Below are positions 1,357 to 53,430 of a stretch of 64,000 nucleotides of DNA, piece after piece. This stretch comes from Impatiens glandulifera. Its lineage: Eukaryota > Streptophyta > Magnoliopsida > Ericales > Balsaminaceae. The first letter of the stretch is position 1. Every line of letters starts with the position of its first letter. The stretch is taken from contig NC_061863.1 of assembly GCF_907164915.1 (NCBI RefSeq), positions 24,223,710 through 24,287,709 of the forward strand, given 5' to 3'. The position numbers were made by a program, and so were the translations under genes. A model generated the notes under the pieces. It did not search any database. It saw only the letters and a list, made by a program, of their open reading frames with translations, and was not told where the DNA came from.

Positions 1357-1358
1357 AT

Positions 1359-1370
1359 TGGTATCAGAGC
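1359..1370 (+). other. Primer-binding site for initiator tRNA-Met
   Basis: TGGTATCAGAGC starts two bases after the LTR end. It is the usual plant copia sequence complementary to the 3' end of initiator tRNA-Met and primes minus-strand cDNA synthesis. Confidence 0.95.
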
Positions 1371-1396
1371 CAGGTAGTTTCAATACTCAAGCAAGC

Positions 1397-3244: not shown

Positions 3245-3284
3245 ATGTGAGTACCAAATAGTTGTAAATATGTACATTTTGCAG
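3241..3284 (+). other. Gag-pol junction: stop codon plus frame change
   Basis: Gag ends ...GPK followed by TAA (3242). The protease frame is different, +1 relative to Gag, and is already open across this segment. A 44-nt block starting GTAAATGTG and ending TTTTGCAG lies between. The second Sirevirus has a block of identical length and near-identical sequence at 63664-63707, with the same TAA. See findings for what this could mean. Confidence 0.7.
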
Positions 3285-6200: not shown

Positions 6201-6506
6201 TGGATACAACAACAGCTGAAGGACTTCGGTGTCACAGCAGAAGAGTCCCCGATCTTCTGTGACAATACGAGTGCCATAGCAATCACTTACAATCCAGTTC
6301 TCCACTCCAGAACCAAGCATATTGACATAAGGCACCACTTCATCCGGGAACATGTCACGCTGAAGCATATCCGGCTGGAATACGTACCGACTGATCAACA
6401 AGTAGCCGATATCTTCACGAAGCCTCTACAGGAAGCTAAGTTCTCTCAATTCAGACTTACTCTCGGTTTAACCGACATTAATCAGATCCTTCCTAAGGAC
6501 GCTTAA
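3285..6506 (+). pseudogene. pol: Sirevirus Pol: protease, integrase, reverse transcriptase, RNase H
   Basis: Polyprotein for cDNA synthesis and integration. The protease active site at 3324-3332 reads D-R-G instead of D-S/T-G. The integrase zinc finger (H..H..C..C, HKRLNH and CSACQMG) is at about 3700-3830. The catalytic core follows with D in HMDLFGP, D in RSDRG (4086) and E in GLAERRNR. An in-frame TGA at 4059-4061 interrupts the integrase core, and the same frame resumes and stays open to 6506. RT has [12 protein letters not shown] (5279) and YVDD (5541-5552). RNase H has SDANYAG, STAEAEY and CDNTSAI. With the stop and the protease change the copy is unlikely to be autonomous, though RT and RNase H look intact. 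Confidence 0.92.
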
Positions 6507-6863
6507 AGGGAAACCGATTCGGACAGATAAAACCGGCAGCTCCTCCTAAACTGTTGGACTTCAACTTTTCAAGGTACCTATGGAAGAACCGCCCGGCCTA
6601 TCAGATAGAGTAAACCGACCGGCTACTTGGTGCATGCACCAAATAACCGCATCGGGATGAACAACTGATAGCTGACCGGTTCGGAAGCAGGCTATCTTAG
6701 ATCATTTGAATTTCAAACAGAAGTGGAATAATTATCAGTGTTTAAAGATATCTGTTCTGAAACATTGCCCTTTCAAAGTAAACTGGTCGCACCTAAAAAG
6801 ACGTGAAGATCTGATGATATCTTTCACAGTACAGGTCTATGACCAACACTCTAGACTGCAAAC
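6507..6863 (+). other. Pol/env-like spacer of the Sirevirus
   Basis: Non-coding stretch between the pol stop (TAA 6504-6506) and the first ATG of the downstream ORF. It keeps the ACCGG-rich composition of the element. I see no conserved motif in it. Soybean SIRE1 is known to express its env-like ORF by stop-codon suppression after pol; here pol ends in TAA and the next ORF is about 350 bp away, so that arrangement is not evident. Confidence 0.5.
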
Positions 6864-9481
6864 ATGCCTATTTCTCTCTCTAAATTCTCAAACTCTCTCA
6901 AGCGGTTATCTGCACTTATTCTCTTCAAACTTTCTCAACTCTCTAAGATGGGGCGCAACTCGGCTCTGTTCAAACACTTGACTCAAGTGGATTTCGAGGA
7001 AATCCGACAGAAGGGAACGCCTGCGGCAGTAGAAGTTATTAACCTGCGGCAGTAGAAGTTATTAACCGGGTAGCCGAAGCCGGTCTGGAGCATTTTCTCG
7101 ACGGTCCCCATATTTTATATAGAGATGCGGTTGAAGAATTTTTCAACACCGCAACTCTCTCTGACGACAAGATCACCGCAACTGTAGGCGGTACTGAATT
7201 GGAGCTAACCGAGGAATCGGTGGCGGAGAGCCTGCGCCTTCCAACAGCCGGCTAGGATGCAACGACGGACATAGAGCTCAAAACCTTCGAAGCAGCATGC
7301 CAAATACTCTCGGCGACTAAGGAGCCGATAAAAGTATCCGGTAACAAATCGACGTTGCGACCGGAGTATATACCGATTTGTGATATCTTCACAAAGGCGG
7401 TTCAAGCAAGAGGAGGAAACTACAGCAGCCTAACCAAGGACAAAATCAGGATGTTAGTCGGCCTGATAGAAGGCAGAAAGGTGAACTGGGCGAAGGAGGT
7501 GTTCAACAACTTGAAGGATATGGTAAAACCGGATTCCACCCGGTCATGGGGATATGCTGTTCCTCTCGGTAAAATCTTCCTTCACCATAACCTCAAAATC
7601 GGTCCCGGCATCACCATCCCATCAAGAAGCCTAATCAGAGCCAAACAATTCCTGGAAAGAAAGCAATCGACCCCCGGTTCCACAGGTGGCCGAAAGAAGA
7701 CAGCCGGCAAGAAATCGGCCCCGGCGAAAGAAAAGGCTGAAAGCAAAGGGAAAGAGAAGATAGTATTCTCAGAACCGCAACAACAAACGGAGGAGGAAGA
7801 GTCGGCTTCCACATCTGAAAGAACCGAATTAGAGAAGACCGATGACGATAGACCGGACGATGAAGAGCATTCAGGCCAAAGTCCCGACAACACCAGTATG
7901 GGCGCAAATCATGAGACCGCCGAGGGCGGTGAAGAAAGCAGTGAAGAAGAGGAGGAGGACGAAACGACAAAGGCCGATAAGATAGCGCGCAAAACCCTAA
8001 AGGTCATTGAACAGCGAGCTGATAAGGTTGGCGAGATATACCGGGAATGGCACGAGCACCGGTTCGACAAACGGTATAGGCACATCCTATCGGGCTACAC
8101 CGACGAGGAATGTTTCCAAAGGCTGAGGGAAGTAGAGGACGTAGTCATGGACCTCACAAACTCCGAAACCATTCACGAGGCCCTGGGCCGAACCTGCCTC
8201 TTAAGACCGCGAGCACAGCTACGGAAGCTAACCATACGGATCCGGAAGATTACGGCAAGGTTCGAAGAGGTAACATCGGAGGACATCTTAACACCGTTGG
8301 TGTTGGAAAGGCTTGAGAAAGCGAGAGGGGAACTCGTTAAAGAAATAGAGCGGCTGGAGGTGATGTACAAACAAAGAGAAATACCGCACTATATACCTCC
8401 ACGGATCGAAAAGAGTCAAACTAATGAGGCAACCCCTCCAAGGGCGAATCCGGCAACAGATGACACCGATGAAAGGACGGACCCTCCTCTCACCGGGCAA
8501 TCTCCACATAAACAACCGGAAGTCTCCGAACCGGGTGTTACTGAGGAAAGGGTCAAGTTCCTTATCCAAGAGTTTGCATACTCCGCGGCTAAACGCCTCA
8601 AAGAAAAGATGCGGAGAACCATTAGCTCGGCACTCAAGTTCGCCAACAAGACGAGGCAACTTTTGTTAAGAACAGATGACCGGTTCTCAGAAATCGAAGA
8701 TGATCAACAGAAAGAAGCGGTTCTGCGCAGCAACCACCTTAGGTGAACCGTAATTTTGGAGGATACGACCTCCGAGATAAAAGAGAACTTTGACCGGCTT
8801 GAAAGAGAGACCGATGAAAGACTGACAGAGGTTACTAAGGATCTGGTCGGCACAACACTTGATAGGGTCTCCGATCTTGAAAAGAAGAATGCGGGTCTCG
8901 AGGCCGAACTCAAGGCGCTTTCCGCACAAGTTGCTGAATTACTCAAAGCAAAAATAAATGCGGATGCCGCTGTTGTGGAGGCCAATGCCCGAGCGGCTCA
9001 AGAAGTCCAGGATGCGCTGGACAACGAAGCAAGAAAAGCGAAGGATCCACCGCAACTTGCCGAAGAGGAAGAAGCCGAGCGAGTACGAAGGACAGAGGTT
9101 AAGTTCCCGGGATTTGCAAAGTCGGTAGCCGCTCAAGCTGCGAAGGATGCTGAGCGGTTAGAAAGGGAAAGACAGAGGCTAGAAGGCTTTGCAGTTGCTA
9201 ACGAGAAGAAAAAGGCAGCCTCTTCCGCTTCGGTTCCAGCAAAGCGGAAAAGAAAATCATCTAAGAAGGACCTAGTAACCGGGCTGCTGAAGGAGGTCAC
9301 CGAAACGGTTATTGAGGGTCTACCGGATTAGGCTGCTCACGTCTAAGAAGAGGATGAAGAGCACCTACAACCCCGGTCTACAAGACAACGAGTCTCTGAA
9401 TCAGCCAGTCGACCGCAACCGGTGAAGAAAAAGCGGAACAAGAATCTGATGGCCAGCTATGACTTCTCGGACTCGGAATAG
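6864..9481 (+). pseudogene. Env-like third ORF of the Sirevirus, broken
   Basis: A long ORF downstream of pol, characteristic of Sireviruses and of unproven function. It starts at ATG 6864 (MPISLSKFSNS). A 23-bp tandem duplication (7021-7066) shifts the frame, after which one frame runs to TAG 9479-9481 with further stops at TAG 7253, TGA 8744, TAG 9329 and TAA 9344. The middle part (7355-8746) is very acidic (runs of E and D with KK patches), and the C-terminal third (8756-9331) is heptad-rich and predicted coiled coil (EIKENFDRLERETDERL; EAELKALSAQVAELL), ending in a basic KRKRKSSKK cluster. I see no convincing signal peptide or transmembrane segment in this copy. The break points are described only; the protein is not reconstructed. 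Confidence 0.75.
7021..7066 (+). repeat. 23-bp tandem duplication in the env-like ORF
   Basis: The unit beginning CTGCGGCAGTAG occurs twice head to tail (7021-7043 and 7044-7066). Because 23 is not a multiple of three, it shifts the env-like reading frame. Confidence 0.95.
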
Positions 9482-17115: not shown

Positions 17116-17948
17116 GCTGGGGGTGTCAATTCAGGTGGGTCGAGTGAGTTCGAGTCGGGTTGAAGGAGGTGCATTATAACAAAATTTTTAATCCGAACCC
17201 GACCCGAACCTGAACCAACCTGAAAACAACAAACCCGAACCAGAACCCAGACCAACCCGATCAACCCAACCAACCCGACTAACCCGAAATAAGTTTTTTG
17301 CTGTCAAGCATATATACCCATTAGTAGCTATAGAAGTCCACAAATCAGATGTGAAACAAATCTTTCCAGGGCATGAATGCATTTCTTGAGCTAGCCTATT
17401 GCATTCATTTTTATGCATCTTGAGAATATCAGTCCTTGAAATATTTCTCGTGAAATGATTGACTTGAGGTTCCAAATAGGTAAATATTGATCTAACTGCC
17501 TCATATTCTACAAACTGAAATGGTAAATCATGCCTCACAAATGCTAAGATTAACAACTCTCTAAATCTTTCTTGACTAAACTTTTGAGACCTAATATTAA
17601 GACTTTTATCCCTTGTTCTAACAAAGCTCGAGCAATATCACGAGTTTTCTGTCTAGAACATTGATTAAGGATATGACGACGAAGATTACCTGTTCCCATG
17701 CTACTATCAACTTTGTATGTAATTCCACATGCTTTACATTTACATCGCAAATCTTCTCCCTCTATTTTAGGAAACATATCAAAATACTCCCACCACTTTG
17801 ATTTTAATGGTCTCTTTCGTTTACCAATACCAGTTTTGGAGGCTTGGTCTTGGGAATCAATGCACGTTTCTTTATTTGCATCAAAATTTGCCATAGGTGA
17901 ACCCTCCACACTATCCTCCTCAAGATCAAGATTAATTTGTGAACTCAT
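17116..17948 (-). pseudogene. hAT transposase fragment with BED zinc finger
   Basis: Reading right to left from ATG 17948: a BED-type finger (WWEYFDMFPKIE...CKACGITY...LRRHILNQC, about residues 50-100), then after a frameshift near 17556 the hAT (RICESLEEPER/DAYSLEEPER-like) region with RHDLPFQFVEYEAVR and ICFTSDLWTSIATNGYICLT. The similarity stops abruptly at about 17294, where the frame enters GGGTT/GGGTC-rich text to 17116. That text begins (plus strand) with GGGGGTGTCAATTCAGG, a common end sequence of plant hAT elements. So this looks like the 5' part of a transposase fused by deletion to the element's subterminal end. It is non-functional. The opposite terminus was not found. Confidence 0.8.
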
Positions 17949-19109: not shown

Positions 19110-20268
19110 TCTATATATATATATATAATGATGCTTAATTTTTAAAGTGTCCGGATTGCCGGGTCGAGAGCTGTGGTTAATTTGGATATATATGTGAGAG
19201 TAAATGGATACATGGGTCGGATTGTGAGTTGACCAGCCCATAAACTTAAAACAGTTAAAAATAAAATTAAAAATGCTATAGGTATGGTTCGAACTTGCAA
19301 CCTAACAAAATAAGTACAACCTTTTAACCAACTAGGCTAATAACACTTTATTTTTTAAATTCAACCCAAAATTTGATAAACGCGTGACATTTTAACAATA
19401 TAAGTTCAACTTTTCAACTAACTAATCTCTCTCTCTCTATATATATAATGATGCTTAATTTTTAAAGTGTCCGGATTGCCGGGTCGAGAGCTATGGTTAA
19501 TTTGGATATATATGTGAGAGTAAATTGATACATGGGTCGGATTGTGGGTTGACCCGCCCATAAACTTAAAACGGTTAAAAATAAAATTAAAAATGCTATA
19601 GGTATGGTTCGAAATTGCAACCTAACAAAATAAGTACAACCTTTTAACCAACTAGGCTAATAACACTTTATATTTTAAATTCAACCCAAATTTTGATAAA
19701 CGCATGACATTTTAACAATATAAGTTCAACTTTTCAACTAACTAATCTATATATATATAATGATTCTTAATTTTTAAAGTGTCCGGATTGCCGGGTCGAG
19801 AGCTGTGGTTAAGTTGGATATATATGTGAGAATAAATGGATACATGGGTCGGATTGTGGGTTGACCCGCCAATAAACTTAAAACAGTTAAAAATAAAATT
19901 AGAACTGCTATAGGTATGGTTCGAACTTGCAACCTAACAAAACAAGTACAACATTTTAAGCAACTAGGCTTATAAAACTTTATATTTTAAATTCAACCCA
20001 AAATTTGATAAACGCGTGACATTTTAACAATATAAGTTCAACTTTTCAACTAACTAATCTATATATATATATATATATATAATGATGCTTAATTTTTAAA
20101 GTGTCCGGATTGCCGGGTCGAGAGCTCTGGTTAATTTGGATATATATGTGAGAGTAAATAGATACATGGGTCGGATTGTGGGTTGACGCGCCCATAATTT
20201 TTTTACCGTAATATTTTTTTCACGGTTTTTATATTATTACTCGTGCAAATGCACGGGATACATGCTAG
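19110..20268 (+). mobile_element. Helitron-like element with four tandem 5' modules
   Basis: The 5' end TCTATATATA follows an A (19109). The 3' end is a short hairpin (CGTGCA-AA-TGCACG) about ten bases before CTAG (20265-20268), followed by T (20269). This matches non-autonomous Helitrons: 5' TC, 3' hairpin plus CTRR, insertion between A and T. The 5' module (TC...AATGATGCTTAATTTT...AACTAACTAA) is repeated head to tail at 19110-19425, 19426-19745, 19746-20057 and 20058 onward, only the last being joined to the 3' end. The reverse strand of each module holds TAGCCTAGTTGG and GTTCGAAC at tRNA-like spacing. It has no coding capacity. Related copies are at 41819-43389 and 54064-54652. Confidence 0.7.
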
Positions 20269-31228: not shown

Positions 31229-31439
31229 GCTACGGGGCGACGAGTTGATCTCTCTTCGCTATTGATATTTAGCGACGAGAAAGATTCTTAGCGACATTAT
31301 TTTCTTTGGTTATTAGCCATTTTAGACTCCCTGTATAGAAAATTTAGACTTAAATAAATTTCAACCACAAAATGATCAAATATTTTTAGTTAATAATATG
31401 GACAATTTTAGCAATAATTTCAACCAACACTGGTGAAAA

Positions 31440-32060
31440 ACGGGTCAAAACCGAGAGTTAAAACTCTCGGTTTTGACCCTATAACTTTCGGTGAAGACAC
31501 CTTACCGAGGGTTTTAGTAACCCTCGCCATCCCTCGCTATTGACACTCTCGGGACTTCCATAAAGAGAAAAACCGAGAGTTATATGAAAACTTTCGTATT
31601 TTTCTCTTTTTAAAAAACCGAGGGTTTTATACAGACCTTTCGGTTTTCCTATTCGGGTAAAAACCGAGGGTTTTGCAAAGAACTTTCGGTTTTACCCGAA
31701 GAGGAAAACCGAGAGTTATATACAAAACCTTCGGTTTTCCTCTTCGGTTAAAACCGAAAGTTTTGTAAATAACTCTCGGTTTTCCTCTTCTTGTAAAACC
31801 GAGAGTTCTTTGCAAAACCCTCGGTTTTCTCCTTTTCAAGAAAACCGAAAGTTATATGAAAACTCTCGGTTTTTACCCGAATAGGAAAACCGAAAGTTTT
31901 GTAAATAACTCTCGGTTTTCCTCTTAAGGATAAAAACCGAGGGTTTGTCATATAACTCTCGGTTTTCTCATTGGCTTAAAACCGAGAGGTTTCTAATATC
32001 TCTCGTTTTTTTCAAAAAGAGAAAAACCGAGAGATTTCAATATTACTTTCGGTTTTTTCC
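31440..32060. repeat. Left subterminal repeat block of the CACTA element
   Basis: About 600 bp in which AAAACCGAGAGTT-type units and their reverse complements (AACTCTCGGTTTT) alternate every 30-45 bp, with variants GAAAGT and GAGGGT. Such subterminal arrays are binding sites for TnpA-type proteins in Spm/En. The open frames on both strands here (repeated KPRVLY.TLGF text) are shadows of the repeat. Confidence 0.9.
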
Positions 32061-32284
32061 CCTAAATTTTTCAAAATGTGCGGATTATTTTGCTCGCCAC
32101 CAAAACATAACCAAAACCTGTTCAGCCAAACCAATATATTAATGATAAAAGAAATGCAGCATACATTAAACGATCACATTAATTGATCGTGAACATTACA
32201 AAATTCGAAACCAAACAAATATTCCGAACTATCTGTTATAAGTTCAACTACTATAATGAAAACATGTTCATAATCGAAACAACC

Positions 32285-34071
32285 TTAGCTTGTGGGGGGA
32301 GGAGGTGGTTGTTGCCTCATATATAATTCGATTCTCTCCATTCTCGCGTGAATCTCTGACTTCTCCCTCTCCATTTTTTCGGTTATCTCTAACTTCTCCC
32401 TCTCCATTCTTTCCACAATTTCTTTCTTTTCCAATTGCATTTCATCCATTGTCCGCCTTCTTTCTTCATCTCTCTTCTCCAGTTCCTCCAGCTTGAGCTT
32501 CATTATTTGATTCTCTTCTAACAATCGCTCATTGTTTCGCTGTGAACTGTTTCCACTACGACGATCCTCACGAAAGTGTGTGGGTCGGACGCCTGATCCC
32601 ATTCCGAAGACGACCCCGTGTTTTTGTTGTCCGAACACCCTCTCCGTCAATTCAAAATCAGATATTCCCGGTTCGTTACTAACAACCTCCTCCATCTCAG
32701 CCTGCACAATTAAAATAAAATATCATTTCTATAATAAAAAAACTAGGCATATTCAATTCACTTACAATTTTCTCTTGCACGTGTTCGTCCGGGACGGGTG
32801 TTGGGTTTTCTTGTGTCGGTTTTGGTGTACGGGTCCTCTTGAATACTTCAATTACAGACGGTGGCCGTCCCATTTCAATCGCCTGTTGAAATAAATGATT
32901 TATATAATTAATAACAATCTTTATATTAAGTTATTACAAATAATGTACTTACCAACTCGTCTTCAATTTGTGCAAACGGTCTACTTCCCGTTCGATGTGG
33001 GAATTTCAGATTCTTCCGATTCTTCATATTTGTAGTACTGTGTCTCTGTATTTGAAATAACAAATGAAGTTAGATTAATTAATATCAACTCTAATTTGAA
33101 TTATGAAACCTTACCTTAAACGTTTCTGTGAAGAAATGGTTGCGACACACGAATTCCCAATCGTCTCGATCGTAGTCCGGTGGAGGATTAGCCAGTACCG
33201 CCGCCTCGTCTCCGTTGTGGACGCGGATATAATTCGTGTTCAAATCCGACCGCCATCTATCCCATATCTGATTGGCGTGTCCCAACCCCCTCGTTCGAAA
33301 AGAGTCAATGTCACCATTAGTCGCTTCGAACGGATCCTGAAAAAAATAACATCCAAATGTGAAAAATAATTATTTAATAACGTAATGTTTAATCAAGTAA
33401 TAATTATTAACCTTGATAGCAGTCCACAGTGAATCCAATTGGTCTGCACTTAAAGCCTTCCACTTGAGAAGACGGTGTGAGACGGCTGCGGGGCTCCGGA
33501 TAATCGACCCCACATGTCTAGACCAACGTGTCCTTCCCACGTCTGTACCGCCTGGCCTCCCATCCTTGTCTCTAAACGTTAGAGGGATCCTCGTCCCCGC
33601 TTGCCTCTTAGACAGCGCAATATTCTTGTTCTTCCCCCGTCTCTTGCGGGCAGAAGATTCTTCAAAATTATCAAAATCTTAATTAAATATGTCAATCAAT
33701 TGAAACACTAACTAATTTGTAAACGAAATACCTGTCGATGATGGGTCGGGAGTGGTCCCGTGCTCCTCCTCGTCATCCTGCTCCTCGATAGGCTCCTCAA
33801 GACCCTCGTCTTCAGCCTCAGCGCTAGGCAGGTTATCAGCAGCGAATGTGCTCTCTATATACTCTGCGATGTCATCAATATCGTCTTCACTCTCGTATGT
33901 TCGGGGAGGCGCAGTAGCTATCGGGACCACAGGAATCGGTGGTTGGTCTCTCGAAGACGATCCTCGTTGCTTTAACACCTCGGATTGGGCAAGTAGGTTT
34001 TGGTAACTCTTATCCAATTTCTTGGGTGTCTTCCTCATACTCTTCCAAACTGTTTTAGGACCTTCAGACAT
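32285..34071 (-). CDS. TnpA-like Transposase_24 protein, six exons, apparently intact
   Basis: Accessory DNA-binding protein of Ptta/En/Spm-type CACTA transposons. Exons (minus): 34071-33732, 33659-33412, 33336-33115, 33045-32953, 32882-32766, 32701-32285. Every intron is GT-AG and the frame is kept throughout, giving 478 aa. Exon 1 has a basic SMRKTPKKLDKSYQNLL motif and an acidic stretch. Exons 2-4 form the conserved core (RHVGSIIRSPAAVSHRLLKW, DPFEATNGDIDSF, NRKNLKFPHRTGSRPFAQIE). Exon 6 is a long coiled coil (MKLKLEELEKRDEERRRTM...) ending in a proline run. A possible splice acceptor (GAATTAAG) just before the ATG suggests a 5'UTR intron. Role, by family: binding subterminal repeats and assisting transposition or modulating the promoter. 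I did not see a disabling lesion. Confidence 0.82.
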
Positions 34072-34181
34072 TCTTAATTCACACCATTAATAAAAATGAG
34101 TGAATACTTGAAATAAAGTAGTAAGAAAAATGAATATAAAGTTAAAAATATAATTAAATCTACCTAATTAATTAATATGAA

Positions 34182-34472
34182 CTATATGTTTGTAAACCGC
34201 GGTTTTATTTTTGTCACAATCTTCCAACCGGGTCGGGCTGACATATCAGGGGCGTAGAATACTTGTTTTGCTTGACTCGCCAATATATACGGGTCTTGAC
34301 TTTGCGTTTTCAATATTCGGTTTACATTTACACTTACGAAGCCATATTTATCCACTTTCACTCCTAGTTCCCCCGAGTGTGTATCAAACCACTTACACTT
34401 GAATAAAACAACTCGTTTGTGAGAATAGTATTGTAATTCGATTATATCCGTCAAAACTCCGTAGTATGACAT
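34182..34472 (-). pseudogene. DUF4216 tail of the main CACTA transposase (TNP2 type)
   Basis: Minus-strand MSYYGVLTDIIELQYYSHKR, VVLFKCKWFD, FVSVNVNRIL and YILASQAKQVFYAPD match the C-terminal DUF4216 domain of TNP2-type transposases. The ATG is internal to the original protein: upstream codons stay in frame only to about 34490, where AT-rich sequence begins. The Transposase_21 catalytic domain is absent from the whole element, so this is the leftover of an internal deletion. Confidence 0.85.
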
Positions 34473-34559
34473 AGTTTCAGATCCGTCAAAATGTCACATT
34501 AGATTATATTAGTTAGGAGTCTATATTGGAAAGAAAAAATACTCTAATTTAAAAAATTG

Positions 34560-35082
34560 AAAATGTAAAAACCGAAAGTTATATAATTAACCTTCGCAAA
34601 TACACATAAAAAACGAAAGTTGTATATATAACTTTCGGGTTAGATGGATAATTCCGAAGGTTAAATATTTAACTGTTGGTTTTATCACTTTCAAATTTGT
34701 TAAATTCTTTTGTTTCTCACCTTCTAATGACCTTAAAGAACATCGATTTAACACATTTGTTATCCTTACAATATTGTACAATCCATATGATCAAACATTA
34801 AACAAATTCTTCACATAATCAAACATAAACATTCATACATATATAAATACACTTCTCTATAATAATCAAACACAATCATAAACATTTCAACATTAAACAC
34901 AATATTCATTTTTAAAATATAACCCACACTTGATTATATTAGTTAGGAGTTAAGATTAGTGGCTTAAAAACAAAATTATTTAACAAATTAGGAATTGTCA
35001 AAACCGAAAGTTATAACATAAACTTTCGTTTTTATGTATATTTGCGAAGGATTTACATATAACTCTCGGTCCTGAACATAGT
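34560..35082. repeat. Internal block of subterminal-type repeats
   Basis: AAAACCGAAAGTT/AACTTTCGG units (34570-34680, 34998-35080) flank AT-rich sequence inside the element. Units that normally sit at the ends occur here in the interior, which marks a rearrangement junction between the deleted transposase and the hairpin array. Confidence 0.7.
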
Positions 35083-36113
35083 TAAAACCGAAGGTTTATT
35101 TTAAAACCTTCGGTTTTTACCCATTCCCATACTTAGAAAAAAATCTGATTTTTTTAATGCTAGGCAAAAACCGAAGGTTTATTTGAAAACCTTCGGTTTT
35201 TACCCATTCCCATACTTAGGAAAAAATCTGATTTTTTTAATGCTAGGCAAAAACCGAAGGTTTATTTGAAAACCTTCGGTTTTTACCCATTCCCATACTT
35301 AGGAAAAAATCTGATTTTTGTAATGCTAGGCAAAAACCGAAGGTTTATTTTAAAACCTTCGGTTTTTACCCATTCCCATACTTAGGAAAAAATCTGATTT
35401 TTTTAATGCTAGGCAAAAACCGAAGGTTTATTTTAAAACCTTCGGTTTTTACCCATTCCCATACTTAGGAAAAAATCTGATTTTTTTAATGCTAGGCAAA
35501 AACCGAAGGTTTATTTGAAAACCTTCGGTTTTTACCCATTCCCATACTTAGAAAAAATCTGATTTTTTTAATGCTAGGCAAAAACCGAAGGTTTATTTGA
35601 AAACCTTCGGTTTTTACCCATTCCCATACTTAGAAAAAAATCTGATTTTTTTAATGCTAGGCAAAAACCGAAGGTTTATTTGAAAACCTTCGGTTTTTAC
35701 CCATTCCCATACTTAGGAAAAAATCTGATTTTTTTAATGCTAGGCAAAAACCGAAGGTTTATTTGAAAACCTTCGGTTTTTACCCATTCCCATACTTAGA
35801 AAAAATCTGATTTTTTTAATGCTAGGCAAAAACCGAAGGTTTATTTGAAAACCTTCGGTTTTTACCCATTCCCATACTTAGAAAAAAATCTGATTTTTTT
35901 AATGCTAGGCAAAAACCGAAGGTTTATTTTAAAACCTTCGGTTTTTACCCATTCCCATACTTAGAAAAAAATCTGATTTTTTTAATGCTAGGCAAAAACC
36001 GAAGGTTTATTTGAAAACCTTCGGTTTTTACCCATTCCCATACTTAGAAAAAATCTGATTTTTTTAATGCTAGGCAAAAACCGAAGGTTTATTTGAAAAC
36101 CTTCGGTTTTTAC
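35083..36113. repeat. Array of 13 near-identical hairpins (about 83-bp period)
   Basis: Each unit contains arms AAAAACCGAAGGTT and AACCTTCGGTTTTT around a 6-8 nt loop, followed by a spacer with ACCCATTCCCATACTTAG and TCTGATTTTTTTAATGCTAGGC. By eye there are 13 hairpins and 12 spacers. The hairpins vary only in the loop (TTTGAA or TTTTAA), and the spacers by one or two bases in homopolymer runs. The arms are the same motif as the subterminal repeats. It lies downstream of the small TnpA-like ORF on the transcribed minus strand. No ORF. Confidence 0.95.
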
Positions 36114-36323
36114 CCCAATTTTAAAAAAAAAATTGGTCAAAACCGAAGGTTTTCAAATAAACCCTCGGTTTTGGCAATGCGGTTTTTTTTTAAAAATTTG
36201 TGAAAAGTAATCAAAACATAATTATTTAATAAAACATATTAAACCAAACAAAACAAACATAATAACAATAATTCAAAAAATATTAAAACATAACAGTCAT
36301 AAAATCCATAATAAATCTACAAA

Positions 36324-36620
36324 TTAATTATTAGAGGGGGTGGAAGGAGCGGGTGGTTGATTCAGTCGACTCCTCAACAAGACAAGTTCCTGTTCGAGAT
36401 TCTCTAATCTCTGAGACATTTCGGCCCGGTCCGCTTTGATTTCACTAAGCAAACGACCTCTTTCGGCATCCCTTAGTCGGATTTCTTCCATTTCCAGCGT
36501 CATCTTTCTGACCTCTTTCTCACGTGCCGCAATTTCAGATTGTGTTATCAGATTCTGGTAACACGGATGCAGTTTCTCCGGTGTACGCCGAAGTCTCTTC
36601 CATGTCGAATCATCACCCAT
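36324..36620 (-). CDS. Small TnpA-like protein (98 aa)
   Basis: ATG at 36620, TAA at 36324. Residues 6-30 (STWKRLRRTPEKLHPCYQNL) match exon 1 of the large Transposase_24 gene (VWKSMRKTPKKLDKSYQNLL), and residues 35-85 are a coiled coil like its exon 6, ending in a proline-rich tail. The conserved Transposase_24 core between the two is absent. So it looks like a compact relative holding only the N-terminal basic motif and the dimerising coil. A minus-strand TATA box and a GT-AG 5'UTR intron (36744-36624) lie upstream. Function unknown. It could be a repressor or decoy (inference), or a degenerate leftover. Confidence 0.65.
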   Translation of the reverse strand: MGDDSTWKRLRRTPEKLHPCYQNLITQSEIAAREKEVRKMTLEMEEIRLRDAERGRLLSEIKADRAEMSQRLENLEQELVLLRSRLNQPPAPSTPSNN

Positions 36621-36623
36621 ATC

Positions 36624-36744
36624 CTAAATGCATTTCAGATCATATATGTATATATATATATATTCATCAAACAAAATAACGTAAACTAACATAAATCTAA
36701 ATCTTTCAATAAACAAAACAAAAAAACCAAATCAAACAAATTAC
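36624..36744 (-). other. 5'UTR intron of the small TnpA-like gene
   Basis: The donor CTTCAG|GTAATT ends exon 1 at 36745 and the acceptor TGCATTTAG|GAT precedes the ATG by three bases. The leader exon (to about 36825) is GC-rich, with CCGCCGCC text and no ATG. Confidence 0.6.
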
Positions 36745-36850
36745 CTGAAGAGAAGAACCCGCGGCTTGGCTTGGAAGAGGCAGGCGGCGGCGGAGGCGGA
36801 AGAGAGAGAAAGGAGAGAAGCGAAATGAAAAAGAGAAGGGTTAGGGTTTG

Positions 36851-36858
36851 TATTTATA
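36851..36858 (-). promoter_or_regulatory. TATA box driving the CACTA genes on the minus strand
   Basis: Minus-strand CTATAAATACAAACCC; plus-strand TATTTATA at 36851-36858. It lies about 230 bp upstream of the small ORF and just inside the right subterminal repeats, the usual promoter position for En/Spm-type elements. Confidence 0.6.
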
Positions 36859-36869
36859 GAGGTTGAGGC

Positions 36870-37260
36870 CGAAGGTTTTCAAAAAACTTTCGGTTTTCAT
36901 GTTAGTCAAAACCGAGGGTTTATTAAAGACCCTTCGGAAAAAACCTTTTCAAAATTTAGAATTTTTTTTTATTGATTAAAACCGAAGGTTCTTTGTATAA
37001 CCTTCGTAATTAAAAAACCAAGGGATTTCAAAACCGAAGGTTTTTACAAAAACCTTCGCAATTAACCCACATCCAACACTTAGAATTTTTTTGGGTTTTT
37101 TGGGAAGGTAAAAACCGAAAGTTCTATGTAGAACTTTCGGTAATAATGAATAAACCCGAAGGTTTTATACCCCTCTCGGAATCTATTTTTAATAGCGAAA
37201 GATTTGTTCCTCTCGGGAGTATTTAGGAGAGGTTTACAAAACCTTCGGGAAGAACCGTCG
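36870..37260. repeat. Right subterminal repeat block of the CACTA element
   Basis: Repeated CCGAAGGTTTT/AAAACCTTCGG and CTTTCGGTTTT units in both orientations out to the terminal inverted repeat. They have the same core as the left block and the hairpin array. Confidence 0.88.
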
Positions 37261-37287
37261 GTAAAGGTCCTTTTTTTACCAGTGCAA

Positions 37288-37769
37288 AATAAAAATAAAT
37301 ATACTTCAATCATTTTTAAGTGAAAATATTATTGCAATTATCCCAATGTATATTTTTGAATGGAAAGGTTATTGCTTCATGGAAAATTTAACAATTCCTC
37401 ATTTTATATTGAAAAATTCAGTTGCAATTTAACCCTTTTTTTAGTGACTAAGAAACGTGGTTAACTTGGTTAGTAAATAACACTAAAAAATGTTATAAAG
37501 TATGATTTTTAAAAAAAAAAAAGATTAGTGCCATTTCATTAAAAACCTTAAAAAAGGGAATTGAATGTCAAGAAACAATGTTAGACAGACCTATACCTTT
37601 GTTGAAAGTATCAAATGAGTTTCAAACAACTGAATTATAGAACAAACAGAAGAACAACAATTGAATTACAAACAAGTCATCAAACAAGAATTATTTGAAC
37701 ATTCATTACCTTGTAATGATTTTATAGGAGATATTTCATCTTTGACTGAGCTTTCAACTGTCTTCATTG
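37288..37769. other. Intergenic, no gene recognised
   Basis: AT-rich sequence between the CACTA element and the LINE remnant. No ORF or element end recognised. Confidence 0.5.
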
Positions 37770-38546
37770 ATTAGAACTTTCCTCCATGTATGTATGAGAG
37801 CGTTGCCATCATAAACAATATCATCACAAACTTTTTCTTCTGTTCTTTTTTTTGTGTTAAAAATTATTGTATTTATTTCTCTCCAAGTATTATAGACCAG
37901 GGCTCCAAAAAAATATTTGAAAACATTCGCGTAAAAGTTATCTCCCTTAGCTTTTTTTCTTTACAAGCTATATGATTTCGTTCCATGTACCTGTAAATTT
38001 AGTGATATTCATGTTCTGAGCAAAATTGATCCACAACTGGATACAAATGCGCACTCCCCAAACAAGTGGTCATTGTTTTCCTCTTTTACTGCACAGGTTG
38101 GGAAATTGACGTCTGGAATATTCATATACTTCTTAATGATGTTTCTTGTCGCCAATCTTTTCATGAATGTCAACCAAAGAATGAATTGATTTCGAGTTAT
38201 AACCTTTGAAGATCAGACTATTTTATGTCAATCGACCACCACCTCCTTTGTTTTAATGATCTCTCATGCTTTTCCTGCCACAATCTTTTCATTCATAACG
38301 ATATTCCAGCTCTTTGTATCAATGTTTCCATTGAACTGTATATTATTGATCAGATTCGGAATTTTGATTCCTTCTGAAATACTTCTAAGAATAGAGCTGC
38401 ATTTTCGTTTTTACAAGAGACAATTTCTTCTGATTCTAACTCTGATAGATTGGAATTCCTCCCGAAGAATTATGGAATTATTCTCTAGCCATGGATCGTG
38501 CCAAAATAATATTCCCCTTCCATTACCGATTTTGAACTTTATCATC
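37770..38546 (-). pseudogene. LINE remnant: zf-RVT region of a non-LTR reverse transcriptase
   Basis: Minus-strand translation gives KIGNGRGILFWHDPWLE, then IPNLINNIQFNGNIDTKSW, FILWLTFMKRLATRN, CAVKEENNDHLFGECAF (zinc-binding cysteines and DHLF) and finally VYNTWREINTIIF. This is the order seen in the C-terminal zf-RVT part of plant LINEs. Several stops and frame changes are present; RT and endonuclease domains are absent. The plus-strand frame at 38256-38549 is its antisense shadow. Confidence 0.8.
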
Positions 38547-39216
<670 letters not shown>

Positions 39217-39239
39217 CTATACACACATATTTATATATA

Positions 39240-40619
39240 TTAAGCACCAAAAACATCTAACTTGATAATTATTTCCTGAATGGTAGGCCTAGTTTGATGG
39301 GATGAAATTGTGCATGACAATGCAACATCAAGAACCCTCAAAGCCTTTCTTCTTTCTTTCCCTTCCACAACAAACTCAAAGAAATCCCATTCCCCCTTCT
39401 CAATCTTTTCTTTCCTCTCCTCTATTATATTTTCCCTACACTCCATAGCCTTAGCCCCTCCCAATAAGTCCAATAACAATACCCCGAAATTGTATATATC
39501 ACTCGTCTGGCTCAAGGTATCAAGATAAAAACTTTGTGGATGAACCGACGATGACGATGGAGACAATGAGGACTTGTGCTTCCCATTATCCACAACTTCC
39601 AATCGATCGGCCAACTGAGAAAAACCGTAGTCAGACAGACAAGCTGTGAAGTCAGTGTTAATCATCACATTAGATGATTTAATTTTTCCATGAACATTCA
39701 TTTGGAACTTATTGTCATGGGAGGGAGATAATGAATGGATGAAAAGAATGGCCTTTGTAATGCTGCATATAATTGTCATCCTTTGATTCCAATCCAAGGA
39801 AGTGTGCCCAAGTTTCCTTGCCCCTAAAAACACAATATATAGTAAAATAATTATAATATCTTGACACTAAGAGGGCTATGGTCAACAACAATTTTAATTT
39901 CTACATTTTTATGTTTTGATTTAGAACTTTTATTGCTTGTTGAATTTTTGTTGTACATTTTCTTATAGTCTCATTGTGTTGAAGCGAATGGTAAATCATG
40001 TCATAACATGATTTGTATTAGTTAATTATGTTGGCTCACCATATATATAATCTTCAACTAATTAACTGTGTTTTAAAGAAAAAAATGTCTAGATCTTTTA
40101 AAAATAAATAAGAAATAGAAGTGAATGAAAATAGAAATTACCACTAAGCAAGTCATCTAGGCTTCCCATGGGGTAATAATCACAAGCAAGTAACTTCATC
40201 CTCTTGGTGTACAAATAAGCCCTAAGTGGCACCAAATACTTGCAACCCAAGCTAACTTGTGCTAGAAGCATGACCCTCTTCCCGAACTCTTTTTGCTTAA
40301 CGATGACCTTTTTAAACCTCTTAACCGCATAAACACCATAACATTTTCCCTTTTTCATAACCACTTTCTCCGTCATTCCCACTCGGCTCTCCCCAATCAC
40401 CCCTACCGATGCCCTTAGCACCTCTCTCAATGTCACGTTTACTTCATTACATATTCTATTGCAGAAGACGAATGGCACATCGATATCCATGAAGCTGAAT
40501 ATACAATCCTCGTAATCCAATATGGAGATTGACCGACAACTACCGTCTTCATCGCCATTTGGAACAGGGTTTTTCGGGCTGGCTTTCTTACTAGGTTTTG
40601 TGTAAGCTCTAGATAACAT
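39240..40619 (-). CDS. Receptor-like pseudokinase (LRR-RLK III-type kinase domain, no ectodomain)
   Basis: Two exons, 40619-40142 and 39823-39240, joined in frame by a GT-AG intron (AGTG|GTAATT; TTTTTAG|GGGC) to give 353 aa. The fold is that of plant 'probable inactive receptor kinases': AVKRFKKV (beta-3 lysine present), [77 protein letters not shown] and a C-lobe ending in [12 protein letters not shown]. The catalytic HRD aspartate is replaced (HGK) and DFG reads DYG, so phosphotransfer is unlikely. No signal peptide, LRR or transmembrane helix precedes it, so the protein would be cytoplasmic. No frame disruption. Likely a host gene, although loss of the ectodomain could mean a partial duplicate. 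No clear promoter was identified. Confidence 0.8.
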
Positions 40620-41818: not shown

Positions 41819-43389
41819 TTAGGAAAATTTTCGTGCGATGCACACGGATAAGAATAAAAACAAAATAAATTAAAAAATTATAATAATATGTATTCAATGT
41901 TTAAAATTCTTAATAAATCACGAATAATATATTAAAATAAAAAATAAAACGTTCTCATTCTACATTTTATTCATTTCGGTAAAACAACTTATTTTCTCAC
42001 ATGTTTCATCACATATTTTTTCCGAATGAATATCTCATCTCGTGAATTTACACTCCACTTTATCAAACAAATATTTGATTCATATTTTTTAATAATTAGC
42101 ATCGTGACCTCACACTTTGGTCAATCAAATATTTGATTCATATTTGTTTAACCACTTTTAAATGATATCGGTCTATTATTCCTCGACAAAGAACATCTCA
42201 ATCACACTTGGTTAAAGGTTGTACTTGTTTTGTTAGGTTGCAAGTTCAAAATATACAAATAACATTTTTAATTTTATTTTTAACAGTTTTAAGTTTTGGG
42301 TGGGTCAACCCACAATCCGATCAAACTTTCCATTTAATCTCACATATATATCCAAATTAACCACAGTTCTCGACCCGACAATCCGGACACTTTAAAAATT
42401 AAGCATCATTATATATATATATAGAGAGAGAGATTAGTTAGTTAAAAATTTGAACTTTTATTGTTAAAATGTTTCGCGTTCATCAAATTTGATATTGAAT
42501 CTTAAATATAAATATAAAGTGTTGTTAGCCTAGTTGGTTAAAGGGTTGTATTTGTTTTGTTAGGTTGCAAGTTTGAAACATACAAATAACATTTTTATTT
42601 TTATTTTTAACCGTTTTAAGTTTATGGGCGGGTCAACCCATAAACCGACCCAAGTATCCATTTACTCTCACATATATATCCAAATTAACCACAGCTCTCG
42701 ACCTGATAATCTGAACAATTTAAAAATTAAGCATCATTATATATATAGAGAGAGAGAGATTAGTTAGTTAAAAATTTGAACTTTTATTTTTAAAATGTCT
42801 CGCGTTCATCAAATTTGGTGTTGAATCTTAAATATAAACAGTTGTTAGTCTAATTGGTTAAAGAGTTGTATTTATTTTGTTAGATTGCAAGTTCGAAACA
42901 TACGAATAGCATTTTGAATTTTATTTTTAACTGTTTTAAGTTTATGGGTGGGTCAACCCACAATCCGACCCAAGTATCCATTACTCTCAAATATATATCC
43001 AAATTTACCACATCTCTCAACCCGGCAATCCGGACAATTTAAAAATTAAGCATCATTATATATATAGATTAGTTAGTTAAAAATTTGAACTCTTACTGTT
43101 AAAATATCTCGCGTTCATCAAATTTGGTGTTGAATCTTAAATATAATGTGTTGTTAGCCTAGTTGGTTAAAGGGTTGTACTTGTTTTATTAGGTTGCAAG
43201 TTCAAAATATACAAATAGCATTTTTAATTTTATTTTTAAACGTTTTAAGTTTATGGACGAGTCAACCCACAATCCGATCCAAATATCTATTTCTCTCACA
43301 TATATATCCAAATTAACCACAGCTCTCGACCCGACAATCCGGACACTTTAAAAATTAAGCATCATTATATATATATGTATTATATTGAA
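41819..43389 (-). mobile_element. Helitron-like element, minus strand, with tandem 5' modules
   Basis: In minus orientation the 3' end is a hairpin (CGTGTGCATCGCACG) followed by AAAATTTTC and CTAA next to a T. The 5' modules (TCTCTCTCTATATATA...ATGATGC) are stacked at about 43389-43069, 43068-42760, 42759-42434 and 42433 down to roughly 42180. 41819-42180 is the 3' unique part, shared with 54280-54652. Each module carries TAGCCTAGTTGG and GTTCGAAAC on the plus strand. No coding capacity. The outermost 5' end near 43389 is approximate. Confidence 0.68.
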
Positions 43390-48785: not shown

Positions 48786-49355
48786 AGATTAAATGTAATG
48801 TCTGATAAACTAAAATGTAATGTCATTTAATATTAGTTGTAATGTCATTTAAGCTGAACTGTATTGTTATTTAAACTAAACTATAATATCTTATAACCTA
48901 AATTGTAATGTCTTATAACATAAATTATAATGTCTTACAACCTGAACCGTAATATCATTTAACTTAAATTGTAATGTCTTATAACATAAACTGTAATGCC
49001 TTATAACCTGAACTGTAATGTCATTTAACCTAAACTATAATGTCATTTAACATAAACTGTAATGTCTTATAACCTACATTGTAATGCCTTATAACCTTAA
49101 TTGTAATGTCATTTAACGTAAACTATAATGTCATTTAACATAAACTGTAATGTCTTATAACTTACATTGTAATGCCTTATAACCTTAATTGTAATGTCAT
49201 TTAACCTAAATTGTAATATCATTTAACCTAAACTGTAATATATTTTAATCTAAACGATAATGTCTTATAACCTAAATTGTAATGTCATTTAACATAAACT
49301 ATAATATCTTATAACCTAAAGTATAATGTATTATAACGTAAACTGAAATGTATTT
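48786..49355. repeat. 22-bp minisatellite (about 25 copies)
   Basis: Unit TAATGTCATTTAACCTAAAC plus TG, with a common variant having TCTTATAACCT in place of TCATTTAACCT. The two variants are interspersed in patches, suggesting stepwise duplications of higher-order units. No coding function. Confidence 0.93.
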
Positions 49356-50630: not shown

Positions 50631-53430
50631 CAGACCACCTCCATCATCATCATCATCAAAATCAGATGCTATAGCTCTTGAGTCTTACCCCAACATGATC
50701 AATAACTAATGAAACCTGGATTAAAGTTAGCTTAGAAAAGAACATAATATATATTTACATAATTCATTTCCTATTAGAAGACGCTTACCTTGATAACCCT
50801 ACCAGCAATCTCTAATAGCCCATTCAAAGTTATAGCCGTCTTGGCATCTTTAAATTTCGAAAACTATAAGGGTGTTTGGTAACCTTGAATTGGTATTGGA
50901 ATTAGAATTGGAGGGTCTAATTCCAATTTTTATGTTTGTTAGACACTTTAATATTAAGAATTGGAATTGGAATTAGAATTTCAATGGAATTCAATATAGT
51001 GTAATTTGATAATTCTCAAATCCAAGATCGGAATTGTAATTCTAAATTAACATATTATTCACGTTTTTGACATGTTTAACACGTTTTTCACACATTAAAT
51101 ATGTTTAACACACATTAAACACGTTTAACACGTTTTTTACACGTTTAACATATCTTCATGTTTTTGGCACGTTTAACACGTTTTTGGCACGTTTAACACG
51201 TTTTTAATATATTTAACATGTTTTTCACATCCTTGACACGTTTAACACGTTTTTGACACATTTAAAATTATTTTCACGTTTTAACACGTTTTGACATGTT
51301 TAACACGTTTTTCACATTTTGACACATTTTGCACGTTTTCGAACGTTTAACAAGTTTTTCACATATTTGGCACGTTTAACACATTTTGACACGTTTTTGG
51401 TTTAACACGTTTTCACATTTTTGACACATTTAACACATTTTTAACATATTAAACACGTTTGTCGTGTTTTTAGCACGTTTATCGTGTTTTTAGCACGTTT
51501 ATCGTGTTTTTAGCACGTTAACACGTTTTTAACACGTTTTTGACATGTTTACCACATTTTTGACATGTTTTGGCACGTTTAACAAGTTTTTCATATATTT
51601 GGCACGTTTAACACGTTTTTGACACGTTCTAATGTTTTTAACACGTTTAAAACATTTTTAACATATTAAACACGTTTAACACGTTTTTGACACGTTTCAC
51701 ATATTTTTTTACATTTTCGACACATTTGACACATTTTTAACACATTTAACACGTTTCGACACATTTAACACGTTTCTCACGTTTTGGCACATTTAATAAG
51801 TTTTTCACTTATTTGGCACGTTTAACACATTTTTGATACATTTAATACGTTTTTACGTTTTTGACACGTTTAACATGTTTTTAACACATTAAACACGTTT
51901 ATCATGTTTTGGTACGTTAAACATGTTTTTGACACATTTAACACGTTTTTTACGTTTTTGGCACATTTAACATGTTTTGGTATGTTTAACACATTTTTGA
52001 CATGTTTAGCACATTATATAAATTTTGGCACATTTACCACATTTTGACATGTTTAATATATTTTAGCCCATTTAACACACTTGTGACATGTTTAAAATGT
52101 GTAAAATATGTCAAAATGAGTTAAACATGTCAAAAACGTGTTAAACGTGCCAAAATTGTGTTAAACGTGCCAAAAATGTGTTAAACTTATCAAAATGTGT
52201 TAAACGTGCCAAAAATGTGTAAAATATGCCAAAACGTGTCAAACGTGTGAAAACATGTTAAACGTGTTAAACATGTCAAAACGTGTTAAACATGCCAAAA
52301 ACATGAAAAATGTGTTAATCTTATCAAAACGTGTGAAAAAACATGTTAAACGTATTAAAAATGTCAAAACGTGTTAAATGCACCAAAAATGTGAAAAACT
52401 TGTTAAACGTGTGAAAATGTGTTTTAAGTGTGAAAACATGTTAAACATGTCAAAAACTTATTTAAACGTGCCGAAAACGTGTTAAACGTGTAAAAAACGT
52501 GTTAAAATGTCAAAAACGTGTTAAACGTGTTAAAATATCAAAAACGTGTTAAATGTGTTAAACATGTCAAAAACATATTAAACGTGCCAAAAAAATGAAA
52601 ACATATTTAAAAAGTTAACATTTTGAACCGATATTTTATTTTACAAACATAGGAATTGAAATTGAATTACAATTCTATCATTTTTTCAAACATAGGAATT
52701 AGAATTGAATTACAATTCTATAATTTTTTCAAACATAGGAATTGAATTGTAATTCAATGTCAATATCAATTCTCATAAAATTGGAATTAAAATTTCAATG
52801 TCAATTTCAATTCAAATTCCCTCTCATCAAACACACCCTAAAAGAAAAGAATAAATATGGACCTCTTAGCTGAATAATATATATATGTTACTTGGCTATC
52901 TAACAAAATTACTAATTAAAAAGAGTTGGTACTTGAATAAATCCAAATCCTTTGCATTGCCCCGTCTCTAGGTTAGTAGGTAATTGCGCAAGCTCCACAT
53001 GTCCAAAAGCCTCGAATATCTGACGTCATTGGAAATATTAGATTAACGAGACAGATAATAACAAAATGGGACCCTAACAAAAATATATTAGTTAGAAAAG
53101 GTAAAAAAATCAATTTTCTTACTAGGCAAAGAACCGATTAGACAAGCATGTGAAAGCATGAGTGCATATGAAAGCATGAGTGTTTTTTACACATAAAAAT
53201 CACACACCTGTCTAAGATGAAGTTTAGTCATGTTGAAGTGCAGGTTACTAACATAAAGTTTTCTATAAACTACACCATAAGGTCCAGTAGCTGAATATGT
53301 CGATGATCCAGTACTTTGGACAAGGTTCTTCTATGCTTCTAATGGATTAACAATTACAGGTTGTCCAGGAGTAATTGTCCGGTGAGTGCAATTACATTGG
53401 CACTGACATTGCTTCATAAAATTCAACATA
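50631..53430 (-). pseudogene. CC1/RBM39-like splicing factor gene fragment, four exons with introns
   Basis: Exons (minus): about 53430-53208 (YVEFYEAMSVPM, IALTGQLLL, GQPVIVNPLEA, RKLYVSNLHFNMTKLHLRQ), 53019-52933 (IFEAFGHVELAQLPTNLETG, QCKGFGFIQ), 50863-50789 (DAKTAITLNGLLEIAGRVIK) and 50715-50631 (VSLVIDHVGV, DFDDDDDGGG). This is the end of RRM1, the linker and RRM2 of plant CC1-like U2AF-related splicing factors, in correct order with consensus GT-AG boundaries that keep frame between exons 1-2-3. Frameshifts in the first exon (VPM-stop, and before GQPV) and in the last exon disable it. RS-rich N-terminus and the C-terminal UHM domain are absent. Introns are retained, so it arose by DNA duplication, not retroposition. 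Confidence 0.85.
50870..52838. mobile_element. Tourist-like foldback element with huge low-complexity arms (1,969 bp)
   Basis: Terminal inverted repeats GGGTGTTTGG (50870) and CAAACACACCC (to 52838), flanked by TAA at 50867-50869 and 52839-52841: the 3-bp TWA duplication of PIF/Harbinger (Tourist) elements. Inside the ends lie GGAATT-rich arms (AATTGGAATTAGAATT). The body is made of CACGTTTAA/CACGTTTTTGA units on one side (about 51045-52090) and the complementary TTAAACGTG/TCAAAAACGTG units on the other (about 52091-52605), so the whole can fold back on itself. No coding capacity. It sits in an intron of the CC1-like pseudogene. Confidence 0.85.

Follow-up and report, generated by a model that had tools for sequence, protein, structure and literature searches.

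An internal array of paired subterminal motifs in a CACTA-type element of Impatiens glandulifera: a candidate binding platform for a TnpA-like protein

The host element and its genes

The window, i.e. the whole 64,000-nucleotide stretch of Impatiens glandulifera DNA analysed here, holds a CACTA-type element at positions 31428-37284, with the minus strand as its sense strand and a CAA TSD on either side (31425-31427 and 37285-37287). The tandem array that is the subject of this work lies within these limits, as an earlier note on this DNA had proposed. Elsewhere in the family, 3-bp TSDs are found in L016, L023, L024 and L028 (ATA, TCT, TGT and TAA, respectively); all five loci with both ends located, window included, carry one, among 22 loci examined. 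The window copy ends in CACTGG. The family 5' ends read CACTAG in 15 of 22 loci and CACTGG in 7 (window included), and the 3' ends of five loci read CACTGG in four and CACGGG in one. Besides the 3-bp TSD, further traits of the CACTA superfamily are present: clustered direct and inverted subterminal motifs, with 26 sites on the left and 11 on the right (at most two mismatches), Transposase_21 (in relatives) and a second, TnpA-like protein.

Read on the minus strand from the 5' end, which lies on the right, the element comprises the subterminal region, a TATA box, a leader with an intron, a 98-aa ORF (hereafter the mini-ORF), the edge palindrome, the array, a block termed "mid", a DUF4216 exon, a six-exon TnpA-like gene and the 3' subterminal region (Table 1). 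The TATA box, TATAAATA at 36851-36858 of the minus strand, was located by eye and agrees with the TATA-driven minus-strand gene claimed previously. Within the element, the terminal sequence (at most three mismatches) is confined to the two ends, which rules out the end of a nested second element at the array.

Table 1. Coordinates of the features of the element within the window
Feature	Position	Strand	Description
3' subterminal region	31428..32070		AACCGARRGTT; 11 inverted pairs offset by 18-19 bp and one by 13 bp; pitch ~45 bp
TnpA-like gene, Transposase_24 (PF03004)	32285..34071	-	six-exon model, open without any change
DUF4216 exon (PF13952, 8.7e-28)	34182..34493	-	Pfam
Mid block	34540..35080		degenerate motif sites, 8 at ≤2 mismatches
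Array	35084..36117		13 pairs, pitch 82-83 bp, pair offset 19 bp in 13/13
Edge palindrome	36077..36172		unit 13 and inverted copy of the pair
98-aa mini-ORF	36324..36620	-	TnpA-like head and coil, without Transposase_24 core
First promoter, CT-rich leader, intron of mini-ORF gene	36624..36858	-	by eye on the sequence
5' subterminal region	36865..37284		11 motif sites; includes pair-spacer-motif stretch 37030-37123

A Pfam scan of seven frames and the spliced gene of the element returned Transposase_24, DUF4216 and sub-threshold matches. The exon boundaries of the TnpA-like gene were placed by eye on GT/AG; the spliced gene matches PF03004 at 3.7e-18, and a protein search with its product gave two matches, both from Impatiens glandulifera. 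Transposase_24 is taken as the tnpA mark in the excerpted text of a lettuce study (PMC8195511). Two gene models of the species are recorded here as a separate observation: P0002 joins a TnpA-like protein piece to PF03080/PF14365, and P0001 shows (by eye) a PHD-like cysteine-rich N-terminus ahead of Transposase_24; these are annotation fusions or transposon-derived exons.

The DUF4216 exon is a probable remnant of a TnpD-type transposase. No frame for the TnpD transposase body was seen among the open frames of the window copy or the Pfam matches of its scanned frames, and the window copy is consequently regarded as an internal-deletion derivative. Transposase_21, present in L009, is not among the Pfam matches of these scanned frames, and the window lacks ~1.4 kb found in L015 between DUF4216 and mid (34487-34501 in the window vs 2733-4125 in L015).

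Over residues 2-30, the mini-ORF product shares 15 of 29 positions with the head of the TnpA-like protein, and its remainder resembles the C-terminal coil of that protein; the product looks like a natural miniature of TnpA lacking the Transposase_24 core. A single-sequence structure model predicts a short helix (5-12) and a long one (19-86), with pLDDT 86.8 and pTM 0.52. A protein database search for relatives gave six candidates, none at E ≤ 0.001. In the genome, 140 of the best 150 of 2,805 candidate places are stop-free copies. Among 22 copies (10 distinct), two carry a stop, and the pooled pairwise dN/dS, given without a significance test, is 0.19. The reading frame thus looks as if retained by selection.

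Other parts of the window hold further repeats and frames. Tandem arrays with periods of 320 and 309 bp lie at 19116-20197 and 42208-43375, respectively; their consensus units share a reverse-complement stretch (by eye) and perhaps form one repeat family in two orientations. At 51047-52593, ~1.5 kb of diverged short repeats consists of words resembling AACACGTTT, which are read as their complement in the right half; by eye, this looks like a large low-complexity palindrome. A 22-bp repeat of 25.6 copies with an 88-bp higher-order period lies at 48790-49351. The intervals 1358-9331, 17550-17948, 37754-38590 and 39240-39833 contain frames of Copia retrotransposon type, one frame with a BED zinc finger, another that looks LINE-like by eye, and a fragment of a kinase.

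Structure of the array and its copies in the genome

The array is made of 13 units and begins at 35084; unit 13 consists of the pair alone and ends near 36117. Tandem Repeats Finder reports 35084-36115 with a period of 83, 12.5 copies, 98% matches and a score of 1980; together with the unit starts, this confirms the ~13 units of ~83 bp described before. The word AACCGAAGGTT (at most one mismatch) occurs 47 times in the window, compared with a mean of 1.28 and a largest count of 4 in 100 dinucleotide shuffles. Folding gives the interior arms a length of 15 bp around a 6-base loop, which replaces the earlier figure of 14 bp. An additional, inverted copy of the pair lies at 36137-36172, just right of the array, and forms with unit 13 a near-perfect edge palindrome with ~40 bp per arm. 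By eye, the units of the window show a period-3 pattern of likeness.

Each unit carries two AACCGARRGTT motifs placed tail to tail at 19 bp, with the GTT ends pointing inward. The identification of the arm motif with the subterminal repeat of the element holds, as sites of this motif occur at both termini; at the same threshold of two mismatches, the array contains 26 sites, the edge 2 and the rest of the element outside termini and mid 6, while the remaining 58 kb of the window contain 61. The 19-bp offset of the array pairs recurs in three mid pairs and in the edge pair. The right terminus has two pairs, at 18 and 19 bp, only 4 of its 11 sites being paired at this threshold. In 20 loci chosen by their mini-ORF (see below), 249 of 256 pairs are at 19 bp, in a scan that admitted offsets of 18-20 only. 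The variable letters of the two arms are identical in just one of 11 left-terminal pairs; random pairing mostly yields 2-5 such pairs, with P(≤1) = 0.064. The left terminus therefore keeps two motif copies at a set distance without a perfect hairpin. Such fixed-distance pairing of motifs would be the expected look of a dimeric protein site.

The same geometry bears on the possibility that the array is a source of hairpin RNA or siRNA, exploited either by host silencing or by the element's own regulation. A transcript would contain numerous hairpins of 15 bp and, at the edge, one of ~40 bp, for which folding as RNA gives -52.8 and -59.1 kcal/mol on the two strands, and 76 and 92 of the 422 distinct 21-mers of array and edge lie within four mismatches of the termini. 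However, the unit stems are short, and few 21- or 24-mers come within two mismatches of the termini: among the 21-mers, 9 for the left and 1 for the right, none closer. These 10 counts out of 422 reject the termini as close targets of small RNAs. No 21- or 24-mer lies within four mismatches of the tested gene stretches, and identical arms are as scarce in the left-terminal pairs as stated above. Rfam gives 0 matches at gathering score over 31400-37300, which also rules out a microRNA or other described RNA family. A hairpin RNA role is accordingly very unlikely, and the hairpin RNAs against the termini that had been suggested are disfavoured; array-against-array small RNAs or an RNA of the edge palindrome may occur.

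The array is not peculiar to the window. Exact copies of the 39-bp core of the unit number 2,779 in the genome, vs 0 for the reversed control, and a rough extrapolation from 23 clusters among the first 100 listed core matches gives ~640 arrays. A search of the 654-Mb genome with the array DNA yielded 172 matches at 40 scored places (of 617 candidates), grouped into loci by hand. Of the 39 other array loci, all found through their likeness to the window array, 20 were inspected over 10 kb each. All 20 keep the order mid, array, edge, mini-ORF, promoter and 5' subterminal region, and the flank holding the edge palindrome has matches, partly incomplete, in all of them. A scored mini-ORF lies within 3.5 kb on the expected strand in 35 of the 40 array loci; for the other five, none was found nearby among the best 150 of 2,805 candidates.

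Since these loci had been selected for likeness to the window array, a second sample was chosen by the mini-ORF: 20 loci from the best 150 of 2,805 candidates, none of them in the array list. The array adjoins the mini-ORF in 20 of 20, with 4 to 15 unit matches per 1.3-kb stretch, a result which covers the part of the family most like the mini-ORF of the window. The genome search for other array-bearing elements that the earlier note had suggested thus finds the array common to the sampled family copies. Its confinement to the window copy, the case in which it would have been an inert local expansion, is excluded by the genome matches, the exact cores and the mini-ORF-chosen loci, and a purely local expansion is ruled out on the same grounds. 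Of the recent amplification deduced from the near-identity of the units, the likeness of units within a copy stands; the array itself is common to the family.

Such abundance invites the reading of a titration sink, in which the TnpA-like protein is sequestered by hundreds of arrays and transposition is thereby limited by copy number. The exact cores and extrapolated clusters do amount to thousands of extra sites, but a genome-wide sink would be favoured by selection on any one element only indirectly, and a sink of this kind is considered clearly improbable. The sequence does not separate it from a binding platform; titration, cis-block and regulation are likewise not separable by sequence.

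Several copies differ in detail. L023, a derivative of 4.6 kb in which neither Transposase_24 nor DUF4216 is matched, has kept the array. In L038, some array units carry the reverse-complement loop, which looks like an inversion of individual pairs at their sites. Several relatives have the mid block twice in tandem, vs once in the window.

Relatives with a transposase place the array in a wider gene order. At least 150 scored matches to Transposase_21 (of 2,420 candidates) occur in the genome, many with frames open near 885 aa; the L009 frame contains Transpos_assoc, Transposase_21 (2.9e-93) and DUF4218. A scored Transposase_21 match follows 51 of the 150 mini-ORFs at a distance of 3.4-6.2 kb on the same strand, and 0 on the opposite strand; among the array loci, 15 of 40 have one within 9 kb on the expected strand. 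Where relatives have an open transposase frame, the array sits between the mini-ORF gene and the transposase. From the array toward the transposase, L015 and L029 show mid blocks, about five more motif pairs and a CT-rich stretch with a splice donor (by eye), and the transposase frame of L029 starts beyond this stretch. We infer from this arrangement that the CT-rich stretch may be a second promoter with its first exon. No single locus examined spans mini-ORF, array, transposase and Transposase_24 together.

This position would also suit a roadblock or insulator, whose bound protein would keep polymerase that started at the first gene from running on into the second unit. In the window, 152 bp separate the mini-ORF stop from the start of the edge pair and 207 bp from that of the array, and the array precedes the second leader-like exon in L029 and L015. 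TNPA on subterminal domains is stated to block polymerase in the excerpted text of PMC2613891. The first gene may nevertheless end ahead of the array anyway, and a roadblock role is rated as hardly likely.

Regarding its origin, the array most likely arose inside the element by multiplication of a subterminal unit, as judged from a pair-spacer-motif stretch of the 5' subterminal region (37030-37123) with a pitch of 81 bp that is related to the array unit. The spacer of the window array itself shows a weak resemblance to the subterminal one: as good a score is reached by 91 of 200 shuffles, and by 24 and 62 of 2000 and 13 of 2000 in further comparisons, while 15 listed windows elsewhere, some overlapping, outscore the subterminal match. 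For the diverged spacer of L041, picked by eye among 36 loci, 0 of 2000 shuffles are as good, and the kinship of this diverged unit with the subterminal unit is evident. The spacers of L032 and L043 are equalled by 3 and 2 of 2000 shuffles against the window terminus and by 22 and 25 of 2000 against that of L029.

Conservation of the paired motif

Variation among units was evaluated in three samples with a unit HMM built from close units. In the array-chosen sample (21 loci; 278 of 293 units used, 15 dropped), itself selected for likeness to the window array, variation amounts to 0.9% in the motif, 0.6% in the loop and 6.1% in the spacer, and the column test is not significant (p = 0.13 and 0.22). 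The enlarged sample adds L029 and 14 exact-core loci, the latter selected by exact 39-mers covering motif, loop and ACCC end alike; with 413 of 518 matches used and 105 dropped (36 loci), it gives 1.0% for the motif, 5.3% for the loop and 7.4% for the rest (p = 0.006).

The sample relied upon is the mini-ORF-chosen one (20 loci; 205 of 251 matches used, 46 partial ones dropped). Substitutions number 29/4508 in the motif, 91/1640 in the loop and 238/5059 and 526/4165 in the spacer, i.e. 0.6%, 5.6% and 5-13%, respectively. By column tests, the motif varies less than the loop (p = 2e-4) and less than the spacer (p = 9e-6). Changes carried by the majority of units at a locus are 0/440 in the motif, 0/160 in the loop and 11/500 and 51/440 in the spacer; the loop variation sits in minority units and is partly whole-loop inversion as in L038. 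In this and the enlarged sample, a few flank columns beside the motifs are assigned to the rest or to none of the named classes. Outside the array, motif columns compared with others are changed in 1.7% vs 4.0% of the 5' region, 3.8% vs 4.8% of mid and 3.1% vs 4.3% of the edge (22 copies). For CpGs of the 5' region and mid in the same copies, 4/692 are changed within the motif vs 29/956 outside (Fisher p = 3e-4), the edge region (0/86 and 0/44) being excluded from this test. All p-values on conservation are too small, because the copies are related and arrays homogenise.

These data weigh on passive expansion, whereby an ancestral unequal exchange multiplied a subterminal unit and the copies simply inherited a functionless array. 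Copy number is indeed variable (4 to 21 units per array, some stretches being partial, with longer arrays among the genome matches), units are alike within a copy and show the period-3 pattern seen by eye, and the copies are related. Against this stand the array in all 20 loci selected regardless of it, its survival in the L023 derivative and a motif that is spared from variation more than loop or spacer. Passive expansion is thus judged unlikely.

A candidate platform and its known counterparts

The preferred reading is that the array supplies bulk dimer sites for the TnpA-like protein and controls a second promoter region; as worded, with its inferred steps, it is given a probability of about 0.6. 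The array pairs would be dimer sites for the element's own DNA-binding protein, presumably the TnpA-like product with Transposase_24, and the array would gather this protein in bulk at a point past the mini-ORF gene and ahead of the TnpD unit with its leader. The bound protein would keep the second promoter region hypomethylated or otherwise controlled. Among the roles previously suggested for the array, those that rest on protein binding are backed by the pair geometry and the motif conservation, and binding of protein to the array pairs is taken as probable. The model follows TnpA on Spm and VANC on VANDAL tandem targets. VANC-like anti-silencing would be the likeliest output; control of the second unit by this route is a tentative proposal put at somewhat below even odds. 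DUF1985, named for the VANC family in the excerpted text of PMC5735166, is absent from the Pfam matches on the seven frames and spliced gene of the window element.

A two-part module can also be envisaged, in which the array holds the transposase promoter open while the mini-TnpA pairs with TnpA and tunes or blocks it. This extension is doubtful. VANDAL elements belong to a superfamily other than CACTA; if true, the module would represent motif-array anti-silencing that originated independently in a further superfamily and carries an antagonist or cofactor of its own. A design of this type, built from CACTA's own subterminal motif and retained in the sampled copies of a high-copy family, would suggest that multiplication of binding sites is a general transposon strategy. 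With a conserved mini-TnpA gene beside the array, two proteins and one 83-bp unit suffice to put the question to the test.

We know of no internal tandem array or separate mini-TnpA gene in En/Spm of maize. With that system the present family shares the CACTA class, the division of labour between TnpA and TnpD and the clustered subterminal motifs, and TnpA of Spm appears in the excerpted sources as terminal binder, polymerase block and demethylator (PMC2613891, PMC10398659). Anti-silencing motif arrays are known from VANDAL elements; as in VANDAL/VANC of Arabidopsis, copy number is variable, whereas the VANC21 motifs are described in these excerpts in one orientation and form inverted pairs here (PMC5735166, PMC10398659).

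Subterminal repeats able to form palindromes are shared with soybean Tgmt and TgmR*, Tgmt having 28 repeats in 14 stem-loops (PMC2613891, PMC4219821); in the excerpted text these are described at the borders and not as an internal array. In the Tpn1 family of Ipomoea nil, likewise of CACTA type, tandem units of greater length occur (122 and 104 bp), but the excerpt places them in the subterminal regions (PMC5105172). Jozin of Chenopodium, another CACTA element, contains an internal tandem array in several of its copies; there the array is a 171-bp satellite, captured or possibly generated, and not tied in the excerpted text to the element's own subterminal motif (PMC8978399). Among the matches listed from open-licence PMC papers, nothing looked relevant to CACTA elements or transposons of Impatiens, and there was no report of an internal array of an element's own subterminal pair beside a mini-TnpA gene. 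Published precedents thus exist for subterminal palindromes (Tgmt), for long tandem units in subterminal position (Tpn1) and for a satellite within a CACTA element (Jozin); what appears new in comparison with them is an internal array made from the element's own subterminal pair and adjoining a conserved mini-TnpA gene.
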